Origin: a virus
DNA length: 27,934 nucleotides
Strand: one strand, 5' to 3'
IMG/VR virus record: IMGVR_UViG_3300003873_000051
Coordinates: 1-27,934 of that record
Position numbers and translations under genes: made by a program. A model generated the notes under the pieces. The model was not told where the DNA came from and did no database searches. It saw only the letters and a list, made by a program, of their open reading frames with translations. Of this stretch, positions 1,434 through 11,434 are shown in pieces (position 1 is the stretch's first letter; each line of letters begins with the position of its first letter).

Positions 1434-1805
1434 TTATTGTAAATCTTCTAGATTTACGTCATTTACTTCTATGGGTTTTTTATTTTTTTGTTCAGTGTTG
1501 AGCTTTTTTATTTTATTATTAAATAATTTTATTCTATTAAGTAGTAAATTATAATTGCTTCTAAGTTCTTTAGTATTTCTTATAAAGCCAAACGCCTCGT
1601 ATTTATCAGCAACAAGGTATTTTTTTATCGTCCCGTTAACATCTTCTTGTTCTTCCCATACTTCTAGGGAATATTTTTCAGACTTCTGGAAATCCTTCGT
1701 CGGGAATGTAGGATAATATGTATTAGATGGTACTAATATTATCTTTTTATCAGCACAACCACTTACTAGTAAAACTAATACAGTACTTAGTATTATATTT
1801 TTCAT
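1434..1805 (-). CDS. Small lipoprotein, candidate outer-membrane spanin
   Basis: A 123-aa protein with a clear lipoprotein signal: MKN, a hydrophobic run IILSTVLVLLV, then lipobox SGC with the lipidated Cys at residue 17. The mature part ends in a charged, probably helical segment rich in Asn, Lys and Leu (about residues 80-110). Phage lipoproteins of this size next to a membrane-anchored coiled-coil protein and a holin-like protein are usually the outer-membrane half (o-spanin) of a two-component spanin that fuses inner and outer membranes at lysis. The proposed partner is at 3258-3626, four small genes upstream. The o-spanin role is inferred from architecture and neighbours; an unrelated phage lipoprotein (for example superinfection exclusion) remains possible. 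Confidence 0.55.
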   Translation of the reverse strand: MKNIILSTVLVLLVSGCADKKIILVPSNTYYPTFPTKDFQKSEKYSLEVWEEQEDVNGTIKKYLVADKYEAFGFIRNTKELRSNYNLLLNRIKLFNNKIKKLNTEQKNKKPIEVNDVNLEDLQ

Positions 1806-1824: not shown

Positions 1825-2085
1825 TTATTCAAATAATTCAGGGTACACATCTTTTGCATCTTCAATATCAAGGTCATAAAAGTCTTTATCAGTTAAATAG
1901 CTAATAATCGACTTTTTAGTTCCTGATAAAATTGCAGTCTCCCCTTTCTTAAAAGTAATCTTTATTTTTCTCTTCTTGAACATTGCGATTTCTTCAGCGT
2001 TTAATTCATCTTCACTCTCTGCCATAAAATCTACCTCAATATTGATTTTAGCACCTTCATTAACGTATTCTCTAAATGTTTTCAT
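1825..2085 (-). CDS. Small capsid-targeted internal protein candidate (86 aa)
   Basis: An 86-aa acidic protein starting MKTFREYVNEGA. This N-terminus matches the capsid targeting sequence of T4 internal proteins (T4 IPs and Alt begin with an MKTYQEF-like peptide), which is removed by the gp21 prohead protease after a hydrophobic-x-Glu motif; here VNE/G would be the cut, leaving about 76 residues. The body, mixed beta/alpha with many Glu, Asp and Lys, is not a family I recognise. It has its own late promoter match (TATAAATA, 2107-2114, minus) and an AAGGAGAAG ribosome binding site. The inferred role is packaging in the head and possible injection into the host. Confidence 0.55.
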   Translation of the reverse strand: MKTFREYVNEGAKINIEVDFMAESEDELNAEEIAMFKKRKIKITFKKGETAILSGTKKSIISYLTDKDFYDLDIEDAKDVYPELFE

Positions 2086-2106
2086 TTTTTCTTCTCCTTT
2101 TTATAT

Positions 2107-2114
2107 TATTTATA
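2107..2114 (-). promoter_or_regulatory. T4-type late promoter core
   Basis: Exact TATAAATA on the minus strand, 21 bp upstream of the start of the 86-aa internal-protein candidate, which is the usual spacing in this window. It would be read by RNA polymerase carrying gp55. Confidence 0.55.
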
Positions 2115-2135
2115 TTGCATCTACTTCTAATATTC

Positions 2136-2414
2136 CTAGTGATTGTCTTTTGTTATATTCGTCTCGTCGGCTATTTTCTTGCCCTTAGGCGTTTTAGAAA
2201 TAAGTTCTAATTTTTTATCTATTATTTCTTTCCATTTTTTAATATTTCTTCTATTAATATGACCTATAATAACACCATCTTTTGATACAGATAATGAACC
2301 CATGGAATTCTCAAATTCCACTTTACCATATTCTTTTTCTATATCTTTCATAATACCATTATACATTGGTAATATTTCTTTTCCTTCATTTATAAATTCA
2401 CTAAACGTTTTCAT
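2136..2414 (-). CDS. Small capsid-targeted internal protein candidate (92 aa)
   Basis: A 92-aa protein starting MKTFSEFINEG, the same 11 residues as the 102-aa protein at 2947-3255. The peptide fits the T4 capsid targeting sequence, with INE/G as predicted prohead-protease cut, leaving about 82 residues. The remainder is basic in its C-terminal half (KKWKEIIDKKLELISKTPKG) and matches no family I know. Its start codon abuts the stop of the 173-aa gene (the two share one base), so it is translated as part of the same message as the lysis genes. Proposed role: a head-packaged protein delivered with the DNA. The function after delivery is unknown. Confidence 0.6.
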   Translation of the reverse strand: MKTFSEFINEGKEILPMYNGIMKDIEKEYGKVEFENSMGSLSVSKDGVIIGHINRRNIKKWKEIIDKKLELISKTPKGKKIADETNITKDNH

Positions 2415-2935
2415 TATAAAGAATCCTTATACTCTTTTATATCTTTCTTATTAGGGTTTTTAATAATCCTCATAGGTGCACCTCTATCATCATCGTCAGA
2501 ATATTCGTAGTATACTATATATGTTGCTTCTTTAGTCATTATATAGTCTATCTGATATCCATCTGCATCTACTTTAGATTGAACTTTCTTGTTTTTATTT
2601 TTTTCTAGTTCTCTCATTAGTTTATCAGCTTCTAAGCCTTCTAAATCTTCTCTATCAAGTTGTTTAACCTCATTAATAGTAACGCCATATTTTTTAGCAT
2701 CCTTTATAGGTGCTAACTCAAAACTATCACCACTAAATCCGTCATAAGCGTGTTTGATAAACATTCCAGCTTTTTTAATTGCTTTACCTATACTATCGTT
2801 CATACCATCTGATTTAATAAGTATATCCAATAAGCCATCTTTATTTTCTACAGCTGTATTTATATCTTTATGCTTAAGTAATTCTTTAGCAACCTTTATA
2901 ATATCTGTTGATTCTAATAAATCTCTAAATTTCAT
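2414..2935 (-). CDS. Hypothetical protein, possible internal head protein (173 aa)
   Basis: A 173-aa charged protein starting MKFRDLLESTDI. The short N-terminus could be a divergent capsid targeting sequence with LLE/S as prohead-protease cut, but the match is weaker than for its neighbours and rests largely on its position between two MKTFSEFINE genes. The middle is helical with runs of Lys and Glu (about residues 95-120). The C-terminal part contains DADGYQIDYIMTKEATYIVY, a beta-rich stretch followed by an acidic patch. I recognise no enzyme motif. It lies 11 bp after the 102-aa gene and abuts the 92-aa gene, so it belongs to the same operon. Confidence 0.55.
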   Translation of the reverse strand: MKFRDLLESTDIIKVAKELLKHKDINTAVENKDGLLDILIKSDGMNDSIGKAIKKAGMFIKHAYDGFSGDSFELAPIKDAKKYGVTINEVKQLDREDLEGLEADKLMRELEKNKNKKVQSKVDADGYQIDYIMTKEATYIVYYEYSDDDDRGAPMRIIKNPNKKDIKEYKDSL

Positions 2936-2946
2936 TTTATAAACTC

Positions 2947-3255
2947 CTATGCATATGAAAGTTTTTTAACTTTCCACATTTTAATATCACCAGATGAAAT
3001 AGCTTCTGATCCAATAGCATCTTTAAAGGTTTCATAGCCTTCTTTTGCTAGCTTTTCTGTTGGATAAAATACATGATCATATTGGTCATGTTTCTTTGAG
3101 TTTTTCATCATTTTCTTAAATTGTGCAATTAAGTATATTGCTCCATCTTCTGGACTAACAATGTCTTTACCATCTGTAATTACCCATCTTTCTTGAAATA
3201 CATCAATTGGGTGGAACTTTTTCCCTTCATTTATAAATTCACTAAAGGTTTTCAT
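2947..3255 (-). CDS. Small capsid-targeted internal protein candidate (102 aa)
   Basis: A 102-aa protein whose first 11 residues MKTFSEFINEG are identical to those of the 92-aa gene, while the rest is unrelated. That pattern, shared leader and different body, is what the T4 internal proteins show for their capsid targeting sequence. Predicted cleavage is INE/G. The body (…ERWVITDGKDIVSPEDGAIY…) looks like a small alpha/beta domain with a basic helix (FKKMMKNSKKHDQYDH). No known family is evident. The start lies 2 bp after the i-spanin-like gene, so it is co-translated with the lysis genes. Confidence 0.6.
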   Translation of the reverse strand: MKTFSEFINEGKKFHPIDVFQERWVITDGKDIVSPEDGAIYLIAQFKKMMKNSKKHDQYDHVFYPTEKLAKEGYETFKDAIGSEAISSGDIKMWKVKKLSYA

Positions 3256-3257
3256 TT

Positions 3258-3626
3258 CTATACCTCTATATTAATTTTTTTACTTCTTGTTCTATTTACT
3301 ACCTTTTTAGATGCCTTTGCTTTATGGATATCTTTTTCTATATCCTGCATTTCTTTTTGAACCTTTTTACTTTCTTTCTTTAGTTCTCTAAGAACTTCTA
3401 CTTCAGTTGACGTTTCTATTTTTACTGCAGAAGCTTTAGCTTTAGCTTTTTTAGTTGCTATTACAACATTTGCTTTTGCAATTTTATTTTCTACTGCTTT
3501 CAACCTATCTTTAGCTTGATAAGAATCGTACTTTAACTTAAGAACGTATCCTCCTATTAAAGCAGCACCTATAGCAATTATTATGTTTTTAGTTGAGCTA
3601 AAAAACGTTCCTATAAAACTAAACAT
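3258..3626 (-). CDS. Membrane-anchored coiled-coil protein, candidate inner-membrane spanin
   Basis: A 122-aa protein with one N-terminal membrane segment (about residues 14-32, IIIAIGAALIGGYVLKL) followed by a long charged, Lys/Glu/Ala-rich helix predicted to form a coiled coil (about 36-110). This is the architecture of Rz-type i-spanins: a membrane anchor and a periplasmic rod. It begins one base inside the stop of the holin-like gene (TAATG overlap), which favours translational coupling. Together with the lipoprotein at 1434-1805 it could span the periplasm at lysis. The alternative is an unrelated membrane-anchored head or membrane protein. Confidence 0.6.
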   Translation of the reverse strand: MFSFIGTFFSSTKNIIIAIGAALIGGYVLKLKYDSYQAKDRLKAVENKIAKANVVIATKKAKAKASAVKIETSTEVEVLRELKKESKKVQKEMQDIEKDIHKAKASKKVVNRTRSKKINIEV

Positions 3627-3904
3627 TACAATTCCTTACCAGAGGGTGTGCCCTGTTTAATTTTTGCTATACCGTCTAAAATTATTTTTATACCGTTTAT
3701 ACCTAGCGTAACCGTAGCGTATGCTACTATGTTAGAATAAAATACCATATCTACTACTGCAGACGGTATTATAACACCATTAAAACTAGCTATAACAACA
3801 ACAATAAAAGATAATAGAAAAACAATCATTGTACCTCTAGTACCAAGATTATATTTTGCCCATGTATCCTGAGAAGCAAGTAGTTTTTCTTCAAATTTAT
3901 TCAT
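3626..3904 (-). CDS. Holin-like small membrane protein
   Basis: A 92-aa protein with two predicted membrane segments, about residues 26-46 (MIVFLLSFIVVVIASFNGVI) and 50-78 (VDMVFYSNIVAYATVTLGIN…), and a short charged C-terminal tail. Size and topology fit a class II-type holin, which would permeabilise the inner membrane at lysis. The first gene behind a late promoter, immediately followed by an i-spanin-like gene, is a typical lysis cassette position. No endolysin gene is adjacent, so the holin assignment comes from topology and context and not from a recognised family. Confidence 0.55.
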   Translation of the reverse strand: MNKFEEKLLASQDTWAKYNLGTRGTMIVFLLSFIVVVIASFNGVIIPSAVVDMVFYSNIVAYATVTLGINGIKIILDGIAKIKQGTPSGKEL

Positions 3905-3925: not shown

Positions 3926-3933
3926 TATTTATA
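3926..3933 (-). promoter_or_regulatory. T4-type late promoter core
   Basis: Exact TATAAATA on the minus strand, 21 bp upstream of the holin-like gene. It would drive the lysis and internal-protein operon downward from 3904. It lies just past the end of the clamp-loader gene, separating early-type from late-type genes on the same strand. Confidence 0.65.
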
Positions 3934-3935
3934 AC

Positions 3936-4667
3936 TTAAATAAATTCTATACTAGGTGTACCCATTAATTCTACAGCAAAAGCGGCAGCACATATTCCTT
4001 TATCTCTTGAATTCTCATGCATATCTTGGTATTTTGCACATAATAAAACAACTTGAGGTTGGCTAGGTTGTTTGAACCATTCATCTAAATGTTTGAATAT
4101 ATATGTATATAGACTACCAGGGTCATCTAGGTCTTGTAGTCTTCTTCTAACATCAACAAATTTTTTATCTTTTATAAAAACCATAATCTCAGAAAAGCGT
4201 GTATTTAGATTAATCATATTTTCATCTAAATTTAGTTTATTATCATCTATACTTTGTTGTAGAACTAAAACCATTTTTCTAACTGAAGGATACATATTTG
4301 ATACAACTGGCTGAAGATCTTTTTTCTCGTACTCAACATTTTCATTATCTAGTATAAAAGATAATCTATTAAATATTTGTAAGCCTATATCTTTTTTATT
4401 CTGATTGTATAGAGAGTCAAAATCGAAATGAATGAATCTATTTCTTAGAGGTTCTATAAGTTGTTCTTTATAGTTACAGGTTAATATAAATGTACTATTT
4501 TTAGAGAATTCCTCTATTAAACCTCTTAATATTTTTTGGGCGTCTTTTGTTAATCCATCACAATTCGATACTGTAAAACCTTTACTTTGTAAAAAAGTAT
4601 GATTGTTATGTACTGTCACGTTCGCAACTCTTTTAACACCTAATTTTCTTATTGTCTTAATTTTCAT
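3936..4667 (-). CDS. 44: Clamp-loader ATPase (gp44-like), third piece: intein C-half plus C-extein
   Basis: This 243-aa ORF starts with a 35-residue C-terminal intein half (MKIKTIRKLG … FTVSN, Asn35 last), then the C-terminal 208 residues of the gp44-like clamp loader beginning Cys36 (CDGLTKDAQKILRGLIEEF). Joined behind …VVIDE of the middle piece it rebuilds the DECD Walker B/DEAD-type box. Downstream are the sensor-1 strand TFILTCN and IEPLRNRFIHFDF with the clamp-loader SRC-like arginine region (RNR), then the C-terminal collar helices. In T4, gp44 forms a pentamer with gp62 that loads the gp45 clamp. The start ATG overlaps the previous stop (ATGA) and has its own GAGG site, so the piece is translated separately. 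The block G penultimate residue is Ser (VSN/C) instead of the common His. Confidence 0.85.
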   Translation of the reverse strand: MKIKTIRKLGVKRVANVTVHNNHTFLQSKGFTVSNCDGLTKDAQKILRGLIEEFSKNSTFILTCNYKEQLIEPLRNRFIHFDFDSLYNQNKKDIGLQIFNRLSFILDNENVEYEKKDLQPVVSNMYPSVRKMVLVLQQSIDDNKLNLDENMINLNTRFSEIMVFIKDKKFVDVRRRLQDLDDPGSLYTYIFKHLDEWFKQPSQPQVVLLCAKYQDMHENSRDKGICAAAFAVELMGTPSIEFI

Positions 4668-5116
4668 TTTTGTTCCTCTATAATAGTGTCCAAGAAACCT
4701 CTTAATAAATGTTCTAGATTAATATTGGAATTTTTTAATATATCTACTTGGTCCTTTCTCATATTTACTGTAACAGGTACGCCTAAAGAATCTTTATTAG
4801 ACTGTTCTTCTATAAACCAGTCAATAATATAATCTTCTTCAGACAGGCCTTCATTAATACTTTTCTTAGTAACATTTCCTATATTATCTTTTACTAAAAT
4901 AGGGTGATCGCCTGTTAATTTAACTGTTCTACCATCTTCTGTTTCTATTTCGTAAACTTCGTCATCTTTAAATGATATTACTTCGCATGTATCTTTTTCT
5001 ATTAGAGAAGTTTCTTTGTTAAAAGACATACATTCGTATGTTTCGCCTATTACCATATCTTTTAATTTCATAGTTTCAGAGTCAGAAATCATAATTTCTT
5101 CGTTTTCTTCTAAACA
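4563..5116 (-). other. Split intein b (in the clamp-loader Walker B), both halves
   Basis: The N-half is residues 181-330 of the middle ORF (5116 down to 4667): block A CLEENEEIMIS with Cys1, and block B GRTVKLTGDHPILV with the TxxH motif. The C-half is residues 1-35 of the third ORF (4667 down to 4563): block F VANVTVHNNHTFLQSKG, block G FTVSN, followed by Cys+1. Insertion is between VVIDE and CDGL in the ATPase active site. The halves are separated only by a stop/start overlap. The N-half is about 50 residues longer than usual and ends with HLLRGFLDTI, which looks like a remnant of a LAGLIDADG homing-endonuclease helix. Confidence 0.85.
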
Positions 5117-5656
5117 CTCATCAATTACTACAATCTTGGGACTATCGTCTATAGATACAGACGTTATAAACTCTTTAACAGAAACTTTAAATGTGTCTAT
5201 TCCTCTATCTTGAGAACCATTTAGCCATTTAACATCCGCATCTAATTCTTTTATTATTGCTGTAACGAGGGAAGTATTATGATGTATTACACCATTAGGC
5301 GTAATATATAGATGAGGATCATCTATACAAATATCATAAACATTATCTGTACACACATATTCTTCTGATACTTTATCGACTTGTCCATTAATCGTATCTA
5401 TTTTATTACATTTTTTTGCATGTGTTGCTTTTCCATCATTTAAAAATAGATGTTCGTCAGAACACTTAATAGATATATTATTGGTAAAATCATATTTAAA
5501 TATCTTTTTAGGCGATTTTTTAATAAATCCTTTTACCTCTGTTAAATTTCCAGCAGGAGTTTTTACATATATACCGTTTATTTGTTTTACTATGTCTATT
5601 TGTTTAATATCTAATTTATTAAACAAATCACCTATTTTTATTTTTATTTTCTTCAT
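4664..5656 (-). CDS. 44: Clamp-loader ATPase, middle piece: intein C-half, 53-aa extein, second intein N-half
   Basis: A 330-aa ORF made of three parts. Residues 1-127 are a C-terminal intein part ending VIHHN. Residues 128-180 (TSLVTAIIKEL … PKIVVIDE) are the clamp-loader segment between Walker A and Walker B. Residues 181-330 start a second intein (CLEENEEIMIS, TGDHPILV). The extein aligns by eye with T4 gp44 from its GKT Thr to its VIDE. The ORF therefore needs trans-splicing on both sides to give a working ATPase. It has its own AAGGGA ribosome binding site. It is not a decayed pseudogene: all extein parts are in frame and uninterrupted, and the spliced total of 56+53+208 = 317 aa is close to T4 gp44 (319). 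Confidence 0.88.
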   Translation of the reverse strand: MKKIKIKIGDLFNKLDIKQIDIVKQINGIYVKTPAGNLTEVKGFIKKSPKKIFKYDFTNNISIKCSDEHLFLNDGKATHAKKCNKIDTINGQVDKVSEEYVCTDNVYDICIDDPHLYITPNGVIHHNTSLVTAIIKELDADVKWLNGSQDRGIDTFKVSVKEFITSVSIDDSPKIVVIDECLEENEEIMISDSETMKLKDMVIGETYECMSFNKETSLIEKDTCEVISFKDDEVYEIETEDGRTVKLTGDHPILVKDNIGNVTKKSINEGLSEEDYIIDWFIEEQSNKDSLGVPVTVNMRKDQVDILKNSNINLEHLLRGFLDTIIEEQK

Positions 5657-5760
5657 TTGGTCCCTTTATATATTTATCTATAAGTTTTTTCTTAGTTTGT
5701 TAGTAAGTCATAAATATCATCTTCAACCCATAATTCCATTTCCTCATCTTCATGAAGACA
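5276..5760 (-). other. Split intein a (in the clamp-loader Walker A), both halves
   Basis: The N-half is only 22 residues, CLHEDEEMELWVEDDIYDLLTN (5760 down to 5695), then a stop. The C-half is residues 1-127 of the next ORF (5656 down to 5276) and carries block B (ISIKCSDEHLFL, with Ser in place of Thr), block F (VYDICIDDPHLYITPNG) and block G VIHHN, followed by Thr+1. Insertion is exactly inside the P-loop, GLGK/T. A break directly after block A is the rare, atypical split arrangement known from AceL-TerL-type inteins; canonical split inteins break about 100 residues in. The gap between the halves is 35 bp and holds no endonuclease gene. Confidence 0.85.
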
Positions 5761-5928
5761 TTTACCTAAACCTGGAAAAGTAGATGATAATAATGTATGA
5801 GGGAATCTACCTTCGTCAAGATATCCTTTAAATTTTTTTCTTGTGGCTTCTGGTAATATTACATCATCTAAAACCTGAGGTCTATATCGCTCAGCCCATA
5901 TAAAATTACTCGTATCAACTTTTTTCAT
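5692..5928 (-). CDS. 44: Clamp-loader ATPase (gp44-like), first piece: N-extein plus 22-aa intein N-half
   Basis: A 78-aa ORF. Residues 1-56 are the clamp-loader N-terminus: WAERYRPQVLDDVILPE is the conserved start of gp44/RFC/DnaX ATPases (T4 has QKYRPSTIDECILPA), and FPGLGK is the first half of Walker A. Residue 57 is the intein Cys, and 22 intein residues follow before the stop. By itself this ORF could not bind ATP because its P-loop lacks the Thr supplied by the next ORF. It has an AAAGGA site and is the first gene after the gp59-like gene. Splicing to the middle and third pieces restores a 317-aa ATPase. Confidence 0.87.
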   Translation of the reverse strand: MKKVDTSNFIWAERYRPQVLDDVILPEATRKKFKGYLDEGRFPHTLLSSTFPGLGKCLHEDEEMELWVEDDIYDLLTN

Positions 5929-6540: not shown

Positions 6541-6816
6541 TTACCATTCCTCTTCGTTTAACTCTATATCATTTTTACTTTTATCTTTTAATATATAACC
6601 GTCTCTCTCTAACTGTTTTTCTAACATAGAGACAAACTCCGAATGCTCTGATATGACATTACCTACCTCTTGAATAGGTATATCATAATGAAACGAATAT
6701 TCTATTAGAGTATCAACGAGTGAAAGCCCGTCACATTTTTCTCTTTTAAAAGCAAAAATTGATTCTATTAATTCGTTCGATTTATACTTATTATCTTTTA
6801 TTTTTCTAATGTCCAT
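6541..6816 (-). CDS. Probable gp33-like late-transcription co-activator
   Basis: A 91-aa acidic protein. The core LVDTLIEYSFHYDIPIQEVG and following helices resemble the T4 gp33 pattern (an EKMVEEFGMSYLEA-like helix, then helices rich in Glu). gp33 bridges RNA polymerase and the gp45 clamp and, with gp55, activates late promoters. The C-terminus IELNEEEW resembles the end of the gp55 homologue here (IEDVFDEW); in T4 both proteins end in a short acidic/hydrophobic clamp-binding tail. The gene overlaps the nucleotidyltransferase by 11 bp and precedes the gp59-like gene. The call is based on size, tail and gene order; direct similarity is modest. Confidence 0.45.
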   Translation of the reverse strand: MDIRKIKDNKYKSNELIESIFAFKREKCDGLSLVDTLIEYSFHYDIPIQEVGNVISEHSEFVSMLEKQLERDGYILKDKSKNDIELNEEEW

Positions 6817-7525
6817 ATTTTTCCTTTATATCTTCAAGCTCTTTTTTCGTATTATAAGAATAAATATTATTAGTATGATTACTTATATAACATTTGATAT
6901 CCTCTTCTATAGATAAAACATGTATAACATAAAGAAATTCAAATTCACTTGATTCAGTTATATATCTACCATCTTTATATGTACAATTATGAAAATTCTC
7001 TAATGCTTTATATAATTTTTTCTTATTAAATTTAAATATACACTTATCTTGTAAGCCATTTATGTTTGTTTCACCATACTTTGAAAAATCAACAGATTTA
7101 GCATTTAAATTAGAGTCACATTTAAAAGAAACATAAGGATCTTTTATACTTACAACAGGTATAGCACAATCTGAAGGATATTCTATTAACTCTTTAATTA
7201 TAGTATTATCTGATACTATAGCATCTCCCCAAATTAAGCAAAATTCTTTAGATGTATTTGCATTATCTTCTAAAGAAGCTTTAACTGCATGTCCAGAACC
7301 TAAACCTGATGATATAACTATAATATCTATATTTTTGTTTATATTATCTCCAAATAGCTTAACATCTGAAGTGTTTATGACAACTCTTATATTGTCAAAT
7401 AAATCTTTACACATATTGTATATATTATTGATATTATTATCGTTATTTAGTGTCTTATGTAACGCTTTTGGAAGTTCTGAATTCATTCTAGAACCTTTAC
7501 CGGCTGCTAATATTAATAAATCCAT
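6806..7525 (-). CDS. Sugar-1-phosphate nucleotidyltransferase (GlmU/RmlA-type fold)
   Basis: A 239-aa protein with the signature LILAAGKGSRMNSELPKALH: the nucleotide-binding loop GKGSRM (9-14) and the PK pair (19-20). LGSGHAVKASLE (about 75-86) matches the GTGHAV segment of GlmU, and WGDAIVSD contains the metal-binding Asp. These enzymes join a sugar-1-phosphate to an NTP to make NDP-sugar plus pyrophosphate; the GlmU-like details hint at UTP and an N-acetylhexosamine or hexose-1-phosphate. There is no left-handed-helix acetyltransferase domain, so it is only the transferase module. It lies 5 bp after the YvcK-phosphomannomutase fusion and in the same operon as the glucosyltransferase, so it may make the donor sugar for DNA modification. 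The exact sugar is not readable. Confidence 0.75.
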   Translation of the reverse strand: MDLLILAAGKGSRMNSELPKALHKTLNNDNNINNIYNMCKDLFDNIRVVINTSDVKLFGDNINKNIDIIVISSGLGSGHAVKASLEDNANTSKEFCLIWGDAIVSDNTIIKELIEYPSDCAIPVVSIKDPYVSFKCDSNLNAKSVDFSKYGETNINGLQDKCIFKFNKKKLYKALENFHNCTYKDGRYITESSEFEFLYVIHVLSIEEDIKCYISNHTNNIYSYNTKKELEDIKEKYGH

Positions 7526-7530
7526 TACGC

Positions 7531-9195
7531 TTATTCTTCTATAAGTTTAAGAAATAATTTAGTATCAAAAACGCTATTTACTTTTATAAACTTTTCTAAA
7601 CCTATATCGTTTTTTAAATTATATATAGTAGAATCATTACCTTCTTCATATTCATCGCCTATATAATAGACTCTTCTTTCTCTATTATTATTTATTATTT
7701 CTTTGACTGAAAATATCTTGTCTGTTTCTTTATTCATTATATCAATTGTTGTATTACCATTAATTTTTGCAACAAGATTTTCTGGTATTAGAATATTTAA
7801 TAATCTACATATAGCCTTTCTATATTCATTATCTAAAGGTTTAATAGAAATACATGTATTTCCTCTATTTTGTATCTTTGAATCATCAAAGCCAATATCG
7901 TTTATTATTTTTTTAATATCTATAAAATACTTATCTATACTTAGTGACTTATTAACACAATATTTAAATGTTCCATCTTTATAAAGATTTATACCTGCGT
8001 CAGCATATACTCTAGACATGTCTATACCATGATGTGTATTACCTGTAACAATAATTGAATCAATATTTTTTACTTTCTTTATATTAGACTTAGAGATATC
8101 TAAATGTTTATTTTTTCTGGCTTTTATGGTATCGTCCCAATCAAAAATAAATAAATCTTTATTTGTAGGATAACCGTAATAGTCTTTTAATATACTATCT
8201 ATGAGTAAATTTCCGTTATGTTTATCATTATTACCAGATAAAGAAAAAGATATATTATTATATCCATTAACTGTATTAAGACCCTCAACAGCATCTTTAT
8301 CTATAACAGTTTTAATATCATGCATATTTAAATATCTTTCTAATATATTTAAAATATCGTTTGCATCTGAATCTATCATATCTTTGTCATTTGTACTATT
8401 CATAACAAGACATTTATCTGCTTTACTAGCTAAAATTAAATCTTTAAATGATAAATCTCCATTATAAGATTTATAAGTTGGTATTAAACTACTCCATTGT
8501 GTACCAGAACTAAAAATAATAATATCTGCATTATTAACTGACTCTATGGTTTCTTCATTAAAAGTACTGTGTGTAACTTTTTCAGAGTCTTTAAAAAAAC
8601 CAATATCTTTAATTCTATTTTTAGAATTATGCTCAACTATATCTGCTTCATCATATAAAAAATTACCATCTTCGCATTCAGCATATAAAAATAAGCTTTC
8701 GTCTGAATTAACCAATATTCTATTCTTAATATTTAATTGTTTTCTAATAATATCTGCTGCGGCCTGCATAGAATTATTATTTTCATGAGCTAATTGTCCA
8801 TATATGATGTTTCCTATACTAAAATCTTCATATACGATGTTATTAGTTTTAGGATTATTAAAATATCTATTAACAACATCTCTAAAAAAACTTGGTATAT
8901 TTTTTCGTTGCCAATATTCTTCTATAAAATTTTTAGGATGTTCACTAGTAAATCTATAATCTAAAAATTCTGTTAATTTACTATCTTTATATTGAAGTTT
9001 ATATTGATTAAATTGATTTTTTCTTATATCAGAAGGTCCTAATATTTTACCATTAAACATTTTTCTTATAGCTCCCGTAGATTTGCCATTATCATATCCA
9101 TTTACTATTATATCCACATCTATCTCTGGGTATTGCATTAATCCTTTTTGTATTTCGGTACTACCAGAGCCGCCACTAAAAATTACAACTTTCAT
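7531..9195 (-). CDS. YvcK/CofD-like domain fused to a phosphomannomutase-type HAD domain
   Basis: A 554-aa two-domain protein. Residues 1-335 follow the YvcK/CofD family: glycine loop FSGGSGSTEI (6-15), YDNGKSTGAIRKMF and LGPSDIRKN (the family's DDGGSSGxLR … PGDIR), SIGNIIYGQL (127-136), and ADIIIFSSGTQWSSLIPT (223-240). YvcK proteins bind UDP-GlcNAc; CofD makes a phosphodiester from a nucleotide-activated phospholactate. Residues 346-554 are a HAD enzyme with DWDDT (352-356), IIVTGN (381-386) and GDEYEEGND (513-521). Its middle (RGNTCISIKP, GNTTIDIMNKETDK) resembles eukaryotic-type phosphomannomutases. I do not know this fusion. Next to a nucleotidyltransferase and a DNA glucosyltransferase it probably handles sugar phosphates. 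Confidence 0.75.
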   Translation of the reverse strand: MKVVIFSGGSGSTEIQKGLMQYPEIDVDIIVNGYDNGKSTGAIRKMFNGKILGPSDIRKNQFNQYKLQYKDSKLTEFLDYRFTSEHPKNFIEEYWQRKNIPSFFRDVVNRYFNNPKTNNIVYEDFSIGNIIYGQLAHENNNSMQAAADIIRKQLNIKNRILVNSDESLFLYAECEDGNFLYDEADIVEHNSKNRIKDIGFFKDSEKVTHSTFNEETIESVNNADIIIFSSGTQWSSLIPTYKSYNGDLSFKDLILASKADKCLVMNSTNDKDMIDSDANDILNILERYLNMHDIKTVIDKDAVEGLNTVNGYNNISFSLSGNNDKHNGNLLIDSILKDYYGYPTNKDLFIFDWDDTIKARKNKHLDISKSNIKKVKNIDSIIVTGNTHHGIDMSRVYADAGINLYKDGTFKYCVNKSLSIDKYFIDIKKIINDIGFDDSKIQNRGNTCISIKPLDNEYRKAICRLLNILIPENLVAKINGNTTIDIMNKETDKIFSVKEIINNNRERRVYYIGDEYEEGNDSTIYNLKNDIGLEKFIKVNSVFDTKLFLKLIEE

Positions 9196-9209
9196 ATATT
9201 TCCTTTAAT

Positions 9210-10349
9210 TTATTTAATAACAGTTTCAACAAAATTTTTACAATAAGAATTATCTAATTCTGTATCTTTTCTCTGATGATCAACAAAAAGCTTATATTGT
9301 TCATCCGTCCATGTATTTATTACATCAAGTTTTTTCTTAACATCTTCCCCATTTTTAACATATAAAAAATTTGCTAATCTTTTATCTTTAAAAACTCTTT
9401 TTGTTCTATCATAATCCTCGTCTATAAATGTAACTATACCAGCTTGAATTGATTCATATATACGTTGAGCCAAATCGTCTATCTCTTTATAATATTTGTC
9501 TCCAATAATAACTGTTGCTTTAGCTTCTGACATTTTACTATTAAAATCATCATATTTTACTGCTTTCTCTAATTTAGGTATATCTGCTATAGTAAAACCT
9601 TGAGCTTCTACTTTTTTAATATTAAAATCTTTTTCTTTAATATTACCAAACATCGTAGTATTATCTTGCCCGAAATAAAACTTTATCATATCTTCTTGTC
9701 TTTTTCCACCTCTAAATGTACCACCGTATAATAAATTATATTTTTTTTGAGACAATGGTACATCTATTTTTTTATCAGATAATAATGGGAATAATTCAAA
9801 TGGATAATGTATCATATCTGTAACATTTATTTTTGTTTTTTCCTTTATTTTTTCCTTAATAGACGTTAACTTTGGTTGTGAAATATATCTTATAGGAGTA
9901 TCAGCTAACTCTATTTCTTCTTGTTTATATTTAGATCCCCATGGTTTTTTTACTACGCTATTCCATGTCTCTTTTAAAGTAAGATTTGGATCACAATATA
10001 TATAGTTTATTGTTCCACCAGATTTAGAAAAATTAGTCATTGCTTTATAGTTTAATATCTGAGCTTCATCTTCTGCTCCACCAAAATAATTTACAGAACC
10101 GTTTAATACGACTAATGTATCAAAATTGTCTGCATTTATAATATCAATATTATCTATTATATCTTTTACTTCTATATTAGGTATATCTTTATCTTTTTTT
10201 AGTACTTTTGTAAATGCTGTTACAAGTGCTCCGCCTTTTTCTAGCATATCTATAATAGCGAGAGCTTCGCCTGATCCGCCGCTTGTTCCACCATATGCTA
10301 TTCTAGAACCTAATTTTATAACAGCAACTTTGTTTTTATCTAATATCAT
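9210..10349 (-). CDS. bgt: DNA beta-glucosyltransferase homologue (T4 bgt family)
   Basis: A 379-aa protein similar along its length to T4 beta-glucosyltransferase (351 aa), which transfers glucose from UDP-glucose to 5-hydroxymethylcytosine in DNA. Matching blocks are LVVLNGSVNYFGG (79-91), YIYCDPNLTLKETW (116-129) with Asp120 at the position of the T4 catalytic Asp100, YGGTFRGGKR (208-217) with Arg213 and Arg217 spaced as T4 Arg191/Arg195, and ATVIIGDKYY … AQRIYE, where Arg296/Glu299 match T4 Arg269/Glu272 that hold the UDP-sugar. All key residues are kept, so it should be active. The N-terminal loop is longer than in T4. It overlaps the cupin gene by 14 bp. The sugar may not be glucose, given the sugar-nucleotide genes beside it. 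Confidence 0.88.
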   Translation of the reverse strand: MILDKNKVAVIKLGSRIAYGGTSGGSGEALAIIDMLEKGGALVTAFTKVLKKDKDIPNIEVKDIIDNIDIINADNFDTLVVLNGSVNYFGGAEDEAQILNYKAMTNFSKSGGTINYIYCDPNLTLKETWNSVVKKPWGSKYKQEEIELADTPIRYISQPKLTSIKEKIKEKTKINVTDMIHYPFELFPLLSDKKIDVPLSQKKYNLLYGGTFRGGKRQEDMIKFYFGQDNTTMFGNIKEKDFNIKKVEAQGFTIADIPKLEKAVKYDDFNSKMSEAKATVIIGDKYYKEIDDLAQRIYESIQAGIVTFIDEDYDRTKRVFKDKRLANFLYVKNGEDVKKKLDVINTWTDEQYKLFVDHQRKDTELDNSYCKNFVETVIK

Positions 10350-10701
10350 TCTTATTTTCCTCTCTATCGTATTTTTGGCATATTGCTATAAAACGTAAAT
10401 CTGTATCATTATCGTTATATACCTTATGAAACTCTCCACCATTTACGTGATATATATCTCCCGGAGATATATCATACATGGATTCATCTATTTGTATTCT
10501 ACCAATTCCTTCTAAAAATATATAGACCTCGTCTAAACCGTCATGTTTATGCTCAGAAGCATGTTTATTTGCGTGTAATACAGTTTCTGACGTTGTAAGA
10601 TTTTTTAGATAATTATTATCAGTAACAGTATATATGTCTGTATCTCGTATAGGCTCTAATGATTGGTTTGTAAATAGTTTATTTGTATTTAATTTAAACA
10701 T
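10336..10701 (-). CDS. Small cupin-fold protein
   Basis: A 121-aa single-domain cupin. Motif 1 is HKHDGLDEVYIFLEGIG (His51, His53, Glu58, then the conserved Gly) and motif 2 is PGDIYHVNGGEFHKVYN with His92, so the usual 3-His/1-Glu metal site is present. Members of this shape include sugar-phosphate isomerases and epimerases, and also sensors. Its position between dCMP hydroxymethylase and the DNA glucosyltransferase, overlapping the latter, suggests a part in making or altering the sugar donor, for example isomerising a hexose phosphate upstream of the phosphomannomutase-type domain. The fold is clear; the substrate is not. Confidence 0.7.
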   Translation of the reverse strand: MFKLNTNKLFTNQSLEPIRDTDIYTVTDNNYLKNLTTSETVLHANKHASEHKHDGLDEVYIFLEGIGRIQIDESMYDISPGDIYHVNGGEFHKVYNDNDTDLRFIAICQKYDREENKNDIR

Positions 10702-10756: not shown

Positions 10757-11434
10757 CTAGGATTCTCTATAATTTTCGTCGATTAGATGAAAATGACGAG
10801 AATAAACATGGAGAGATCCAACTTGATGTATAATATTTCCAGCTTCTAATTCAGGATAGTCAAATACGAGTTCTTCTACTAGTTTGTTTTGTACATGTCT
10901 TGCCCAGTACAAATCATTCTTGGCGCCAAAAACAGCGTCGCAAGAACGTTGGTTTAAAATATAGTCAAGTTTATTGTCTCTTATTAAAATTTGAACAGAG
11001 TTAGTACACATAAAATCAGACATACCATTCTTATTAAATTCCCATTGCATAGATGGTCTAGTATAAATCATCATAGCTCTTCTTGAATCTTTGTCTTTTC
11101 TAAGAGTTCTTAAACAGTGTTTATATTGATTGCCATTTTCTTCAGAATATATAACATAACCATAATTTGAGTTAATATATCCTCTAGAGTCTGAAACCTG
11201 TTTCCAAATCAAGGGTGTTTTAGGTAAATCATAAACATTCAAAGATTGAGATTCGTACCAAATAACCTCTCTTATCGCATAATCCATATTCAATGTACCA
11301 AATATAACTTCTTCATCTGCTATATACGACTCTCCAACTAACTCAACTGTTTTAGAATCTGTTTTGTCTATAACAAAATCTTCATTTTTTAATTTTTCAA
11401 TTAGCTCTTTTTTAATATCGTTTATTTTTTTCAT
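10757..11434 (-). CDS. 42: dCMP hydroxymethylase (T4 gp42 homologue)
   Basis: A 225-aa enzyme of the thymidylate synthase fold that is closely similar to T4 gp42 (246 aa), which adds a hydroxymethyl group to dCMP using methylene-tetrahydrofolate. Shared stretches are INSNYGYVIYSE (88-99), SRRAMMIYTRPSMQ, NGMSDFMCTNSVQ with nucleophile Cys143 (T4 Cys148), RSCDAVFGAKND (163-174) and VGSLHVYSRHFHL (205-217). Asp174 stands where thymidylate synthases have the Asn that reads dUMP; in T4 gp42 it is Asp179 and gives dCMP specificity. So the phage should contain hydroxymethylcytosine. It lacks about 20 residues of the T4 C-terminus. It lies among tmk-like, SGNH-like, cupin and glucosyltransferase genes. 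Confidence 0.9.
   Translation of the reverse strand: MKKINDIKKELIEKLKNEDFVIDKTDSKTVELVGESYIADEEVIFGTLNMDYAIREVIWYESQSLNVYDLPKTPLIWKQVSDSRGYINSNYGYVIYSEENGNQYKHCLRTLRKDKDSRRAMMIYTRPSMQWEFNKNGMSDFMCTNSVQILIRDNKLDYILNQRSCDAVFGAKNDLYWARHVQNKLVEELVFDYPELEAGNIIHQVGSLHVYSRHFHLIDENYRES

Follow-up and report, generated by a model that had tools for sequence, protein, structure and literature searches.

A candidate late-expressed cassette of T4-type capsid-targeted internal head proteins with unrelated cargoes in an uncultured T4-like virus

What are four adjacent small genes doing among the lysis genes of an uncultured phage, when three of them begin with nearly the same ten residues, the fourth with a shorter version of them, and the rest of their products have nothing in common? 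The question is raised by the IMG/VR record IMGVR_UViG_3300003873_000051, from an uncultured T4-like virus, whose positions 1-27,934 (27,934 nt, hereafter the window) were analysed as a whole. The reading that we favour, with a probability of about 0.8, is that these genes form a late-expressed cassette of T4-type capsid-targeted internal head proteins with unrelated cargoes. Three of the genes carry the T4 head-loading tag and one resembles it, and their products are therefore probably a cargo that enters the host as infection begins.

Four leader-bearing genes among lysis genes

A preliminary description had reported that three ORFs begin with MKTF(S/R)E(F/Y)(I/V)NEG and one with MKFRDLLES, and all four are indeed present, on the minus strand. 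A regular expression for the leader matches exactly these four among the 35 non-overlapping ORFs of the window. In gene order (a slash marks the putative cleavage site), the 102-aa ORF (2947..3255) starts with MKTFSEFINE/G at 3226-3255 and would yield a mature body of 92 aa with a pI of 8.75. It is followed by the 173-aa ORF (2414..2935), with the shorter, leader-like start MKFRDLLE/S at 2912-2935 and a predicted mature body of 165 aa (pI 5.5), by the 92-aa ORF (2136..2414), with MKTFSEFINE/G at 2385-2414 and a body of 82 aa (pI 9.3), and by the 86-aa ORF (1825..2085), with MKTFREYVNE/G at 2056-2085 and a body of 76 aa (pI 4.65).

The cluster is surrounded by lysis genes rather than head genes. 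Ahead of it on the same strand lie the operon's first gene (3626..3904), whose small hydrophobic product appears holin-like from its sequence and found no family match in a Pfam and PHROGs search, and the gene of an inner-membrane spanin-like protein (3258..3626), with an N-terminal hydrophobic stretch, a coiled coil and a weak match to an Rz-like PHROG but to nothing else. After the 86-aa ORF comes the gene of a small, o-spanin-like lipoprotein (1434..1805, minus strand), recognized by its lipobox LVSGC and by weak matches. The T4-type late promoter sequence TATAAATA precedes the start of the 86-aa ORF by 22 nt (2107..2114, minus strand) and, again by 22 nt, that of the holin-like gene heading the operon (3926..3933, minus strand). 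In this AT-rich window TATAAATA is not more frequent than expected by chance and is enriched in position alone: 9 of its 13 copies precede a start codon by 17-36 nt, whereas circular shifts gave 0.28 such copies on average and not once 9 in 5000. Expression of the leader genes hence looks late, and the position of the promoter fits production together with the head.

This arrangement is also what might be expected if the four ORFs encoded lysis-related or membrane proteins of a holin-spanin cassette, the leader being incidental, as they sit between the holin- and spanin-like genes and the lipoprotein gene and the late promoter at 3933 is probably common to all. However, their sequences read as those of soluble proteins and do not resemble lysis families, while their leaders agree with the capsid leader of T4 and, in relatives, such leaders are found next to head genes, at a distance from those for lysis, so that we consider this explanation very improbable. 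For a cassette of internal head proteins, T4 itself offers a parallel, since its ipII and ipIII genes both flank the lysozyme gene e, just as the leader genes of the window are close to lysis genes.

Two other features of the window may be mentioned here. At 3936-5928, on the minus strand, a gp44-like clamp-loader gene is apparently spread over three ORFs, with breaks in the P-loop (GLGK, then C...HHN, then TSLV) and near Walker B (VVIDE, then C...SN, then CDGLTK) that look like two successive split inteins. A search for relatives of a 392-aa window protein returned none.

The leader in T4 and in two relatives

In T4, according to its record, MKTYQEFIAE/A opens both ipII and ipIII, and MKTFKEFTSTTTPVSTITE/A opens ipI. 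The first 10 residues of IPIII are enough for packaging, as described in a review of Lindsay Black's work, and published mutagenesis assigns targeting to residues 4 and 7 and processing to residues 8 and 10, the motif of the T4 protease being L/I-x-E (PMC9026906). All of these mapped positions are matched in the three MKTF leaders of the window (F4, F/Y7, I/V8, E10). The account of the T4 leader as cut after hydrophobic-x-Glu is correct, and the window proteins have putative sites of this kind, with I-N-E/G in two leaders, L-L-E/S in the 173-aa protein and V-N-E/G in the remaining one, V-x-E here standing in for the L/I-x-E of T4. In the 173-aa protein the distance from the aromatic residue to the Glu is shorter by one residue than in its three neighbours, which makes it the weaker member of the group. 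Its start, MKFRDLLEST, resembles the N-terminal propeptides of T4 gp24 (MAKINELLREST) and of the gp23 encoded by the related contig G001 (MADYKALLEST), but its body is not a capsid protein and has no match in PHROGs or Pfam.

The window proteins thus share with T4 IPI, IPII and IPIII a 10-residue leader, MKT[FY]xE[FY][IV]xE, with a small residue after it, bodies that are small, mutually unrelated and similar in size, and late expression signals. They differ in that their bodies have no homology to those of T4 and belong to another phage lineage with other surrounding genes, and in charge: mature T4 internal proteins have pI values of 9.0-9.7, whereas two of the window bodies are basic (9.3 and 8.75) and two acidic (4.65 and 5.5). 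The ejection proteins of phiKZ-like phages and SPN3US are also injected after processing by a head protease, but are set apart by another protease lineage and other propeptides (PMC5694885, PMC10052503).

If the likeness to T4 extends to function, the first 10 residues would act as a T4-type capsid-targeting sequence, with the aromatic residues 4 and 7 binding the prohead core, and the head protease would cut the leader after I/V-N-E. The freed body would then stay beside the DNA within the head and accompany it into the host, by analogy early in infection. Each of the unrelated bodies would be a cargo of its own, with rapid counter-defence or takeover of the host as the likeliest job.

Two related contigs link the leader to head genes. 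On the 183-kb contig G001 the 102-aa protein has a homologue: the two bodies are 54% identical (hhalign E 4e-25 between them), yet MKTFSEFINEG is replaced there by MKFKEMFLEA. Leaders of the G001 type (MFKELFTEA, MFRELFTER, MFKKLFIED etc.) are found on 10 of its 273 ORFs against 0.11 expected, an expectation derived from internal positions for a motif selected once the data had been inspected; with the looser motif tried first, the count was 11 ORFs against about 2-3 expected. One G001 leader gene is flanked by those of the prohead protease (phrog_207) and scaffold (phrog_237), beside the portal and major capsid genes. HPPR and GVSSRG, the active-site motifs of T4 gp21, are conserved in the G001 protease, and a candidate cleavage site, MIAE/GTIS, is seen in G001 gp23. 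In the 55-kb contig G002, the leaders MKTFSEFINE and MKTFREYVNE follow immediately on the major capsid gene (phrog_138, E 4e-24), in a group that also includes MIKFKEYITE, MIKFKDFMNE and MTFKDYVNE. The 27.9 kb of the window include neither a head protease nor a scaffold gene, and a gp21-type protease was not found in the G002 fragment, so that co-occurrence of the leader with protease and scaffold is seen in G001 only. A match in G002 to the 86-aa protein was rejected as a homologue, as the leader alone is responsible for it and the G002 body is not homologous.

At the level of sequence, the leader is independent of the body, one leader being carried by unrelated bodies and one body by another leader. 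Taken with the T4 match and the proximity to head genes in G001 and G002, this leader swap argues strongly that the three MKTF proteins are sent to the prohead, as the preliminary description had proposed; the proposal stands less firmly for the fourth, whose leader is shorter. At least the three MKTF proteins are very probably packaged, while for the 173-aa protein packaging is somewhat favoured.

Common 5' ends could also reflect a recently duplicated stretch or a recombination seed with no targeting role, and the two MKTFSEFINEG leaders of the window are in fact only 2 codons apart. Against this, MKTFREYVNE of the window and its G002 counterpart differ by 5 codons, all synonymously, which indicates that the leader is conserved as a protein, with selection on the peptide, and the peptide type recurs across very distant phages. 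We therefore give duplication alone very little credence.

Both contigs have further features of their own. G001 and G002 encode small leucine-repeat-like proteins with the common start M.F[RK]D[TS][KR][YF]GDLTGQ, several copies of them in G001 (e.g., G001:538, 129527 and 169642; G002:1102), and several CxxxCxxC-type radical-SAM-like genes adjoin sugar-metabolism genes at 144-167 kb of G001.

Unrelated bodies in the window and across IMG/VR

The view that the four bodies are unrelated to one another is upheld by pairwise comparison, with a best BLASTP E of 0.15 over 18 aa and hhalign probabilities below 1%. Searches of the bodies against Pfam, PHROGs and PDB sequences returned no significant family match, an hhalign comparison with about 50 leader-body clusters and the T4 ipI, ipII and ipIII bodies gave no significant match to either, and an IMG/VR search found no relative of the 173-aa and 92-aa proteins. 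Structure prediction covered the 102-aa and 86-aa proteins (AlphaFold pLDDT 59 and 68, respectively), whose models had no significant fold match in Foldseek; Acb4 and NUDIX folds were dropped as identities because these matches were at chance level. Matches of the 86-aa (E 0.4) and 102-aa (E 0.045) proteins to phrog_2667, annotated as an internal head protein, were not counted either, as the alignments begin at residue 1 and are probably driven by the leader.

The leader itself is widespread. A scan of IMG/VR with the codon-degenerate pattern MKT[FY]xE[FY][ILVM]xE[AG] retrieved at least 120 stretches; once its codons were permuted, a control pattern with the same information matched 0. The resemblance is therefore not due to chance. 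Among the matches listed, 116 tagged bodies of at least 40 aa fall into 53 unrelated clusters, 38 of them singletons, and in an alignment of 81 tagged proteins from these matches M1 and E10 alone are nearly invariant. Position 11 is Ala in 103/117 of the environmental leaders among the matches listed (Gly in the MKTF leaders of the window) and position 8 is V in 15/117. Four PHROG families annotated as internal head or virion proteins are found in the retrieved tagged set (phrog_2667, 8765, 5341 and 3155). The window shares with these marine and environmental T4-like phages the leader pattern on unrelated bodies, but its own bodies are unrelated to theirs, several of which are recognizable enzymes.

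Among the latter is Acb1 (anti-CBASS), encoded with a capsid-leader-like N-terminus on an environmental contig (L045:2104-2571; Pfam E 2.8e-23) and by the Vibrio phages pv27 and Va1 (L143:2492-3016 and L147:1992-2525). The Acb1 domain of the L045 protein starts at residue 21, past the leader, and the two Vibrio phage homologues begin with KSFREHLNQTSTDFITE/A, a segment that ends in F-I-T-E/A and is similar to the long leader of IPI, whereas T4 Acb1 (57B) has no leader-like N-terminal extension. SAM lyases with an MKT[FY]xEF leader are encoded at L127:2127-2657, L091:2598-3149 and L077:4876-5382 (Pfam E 3.2e-13, 1.4e-8 and 2.2e-6, respectively), and it is possible that they are virion-delivered anti-restriction or anti-BREX enzymes. 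Other tagged Pfam types include cytidylyltransferase-like, GNAT, HAD-type and DPBB proteins. A leader on Acb1 or SAM lyase was not found in the literature searched, which was limited to part of the open-access literature. In addition, a YHGT...GF...ST pattern with the look of an ADP-ribosyltransferase fold (cf. T4 Alt) is seen in tagged proteins of L023, L062, L066, L078, L098 and others; that of L023, the one tested, had no Pfam match.

These data also bear on the idea that, although the leader directs the proteins to the prohead core, their bodies are head-assembly or structural proteins, acting in the virion with no job in the next host. Loss of IPIII slows T4 head assembly (PMC9026906), basic-tailed gp68-like proteins of G002 and G001 have a similar N-terminus, and a PA5oct homologue of one tagged protein is annotated as structural. 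This homologue, of a tagged marine family, is found in the PA5oct virion according to an ESI-MS/MS note in the record, which also speaks for our own reading; it begins with MKSFRDYYDAS, without the Glu, and therefore supports the virion location of the family but not cleavage. A purely structural role is nonetheless rather improbable in light of the very fast turnover of bodies (53 clusters in 116 among the matches listed) and of Acb1 and SAM lyase, two tagged counter-defence lineages with no obvious structural use.

Plausible DNA modification, restriction and a possible delivery of phage enzymes

If the bodies are delivered cargo, against what could they act? The window encodes, at 10757..11434 on the minus strand, a dCMP hydroxymethylase-like protein that aligns over its full length with T4 gp42, FGxxND stretch included. 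Modified cytosine in the phage DNA is hence plausible, and with it type IV restriction as a threat. The adjoining region (6806-10701) encodes a nucleotidyltransferase, a CofD-domain protein (PF01933, E 2e-24), whose C-terminal part is apparently HAD-like, and a cupin.

T4 Ip1, Ip2 and Ip3 are all inhibitors of type IV restriction, with a different GmrSD as the target of each (PMC12373910), and an anti-restriction role of the window bodies is plausible. Several points count against inhibitors of this kind: the window bodies do not resemble Ip1-3 or known inhibitors, two of them are acidic, the modelled ones gave no fold match, and the tagged proteins found elsewhere are very different enzymes. 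We lean slightly towards at least one of the four proteins acting against a host defence, but action on type IV restriction specifically seems unlikely.

Internal proteins are an already known kind, of which the window provides new members; more surprising are the tagged enzymes found elsewhere. Repoila (1994) is reportedly a source for proteins of this kind in T-even phages. The leader-search approach, formerly used in T-even phages, works here in distant uncultured ones, and offers a simple sequence route to injected phage proteins, including counter-defence proteins without a recognizable domain. That Acb1 and SAM lyases bear the tag suggests delivery of such enzymes by some phages, ready-made and together with the DNA. 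Whether the T4-superfamily leader is a general, lineage-specific packaging tag for enzymes and not just for small inhibitors, the window being a local cargo set, is to us an evenly balanced question. If so, Acb1, SAM lyases, nucleotidyltransferases, acetyltransferases and HAD-type proteins would be pre-loaded in the virion, the window cargo might include new folds, and counter-defence would be immediate, ahead of any phage gene expression.
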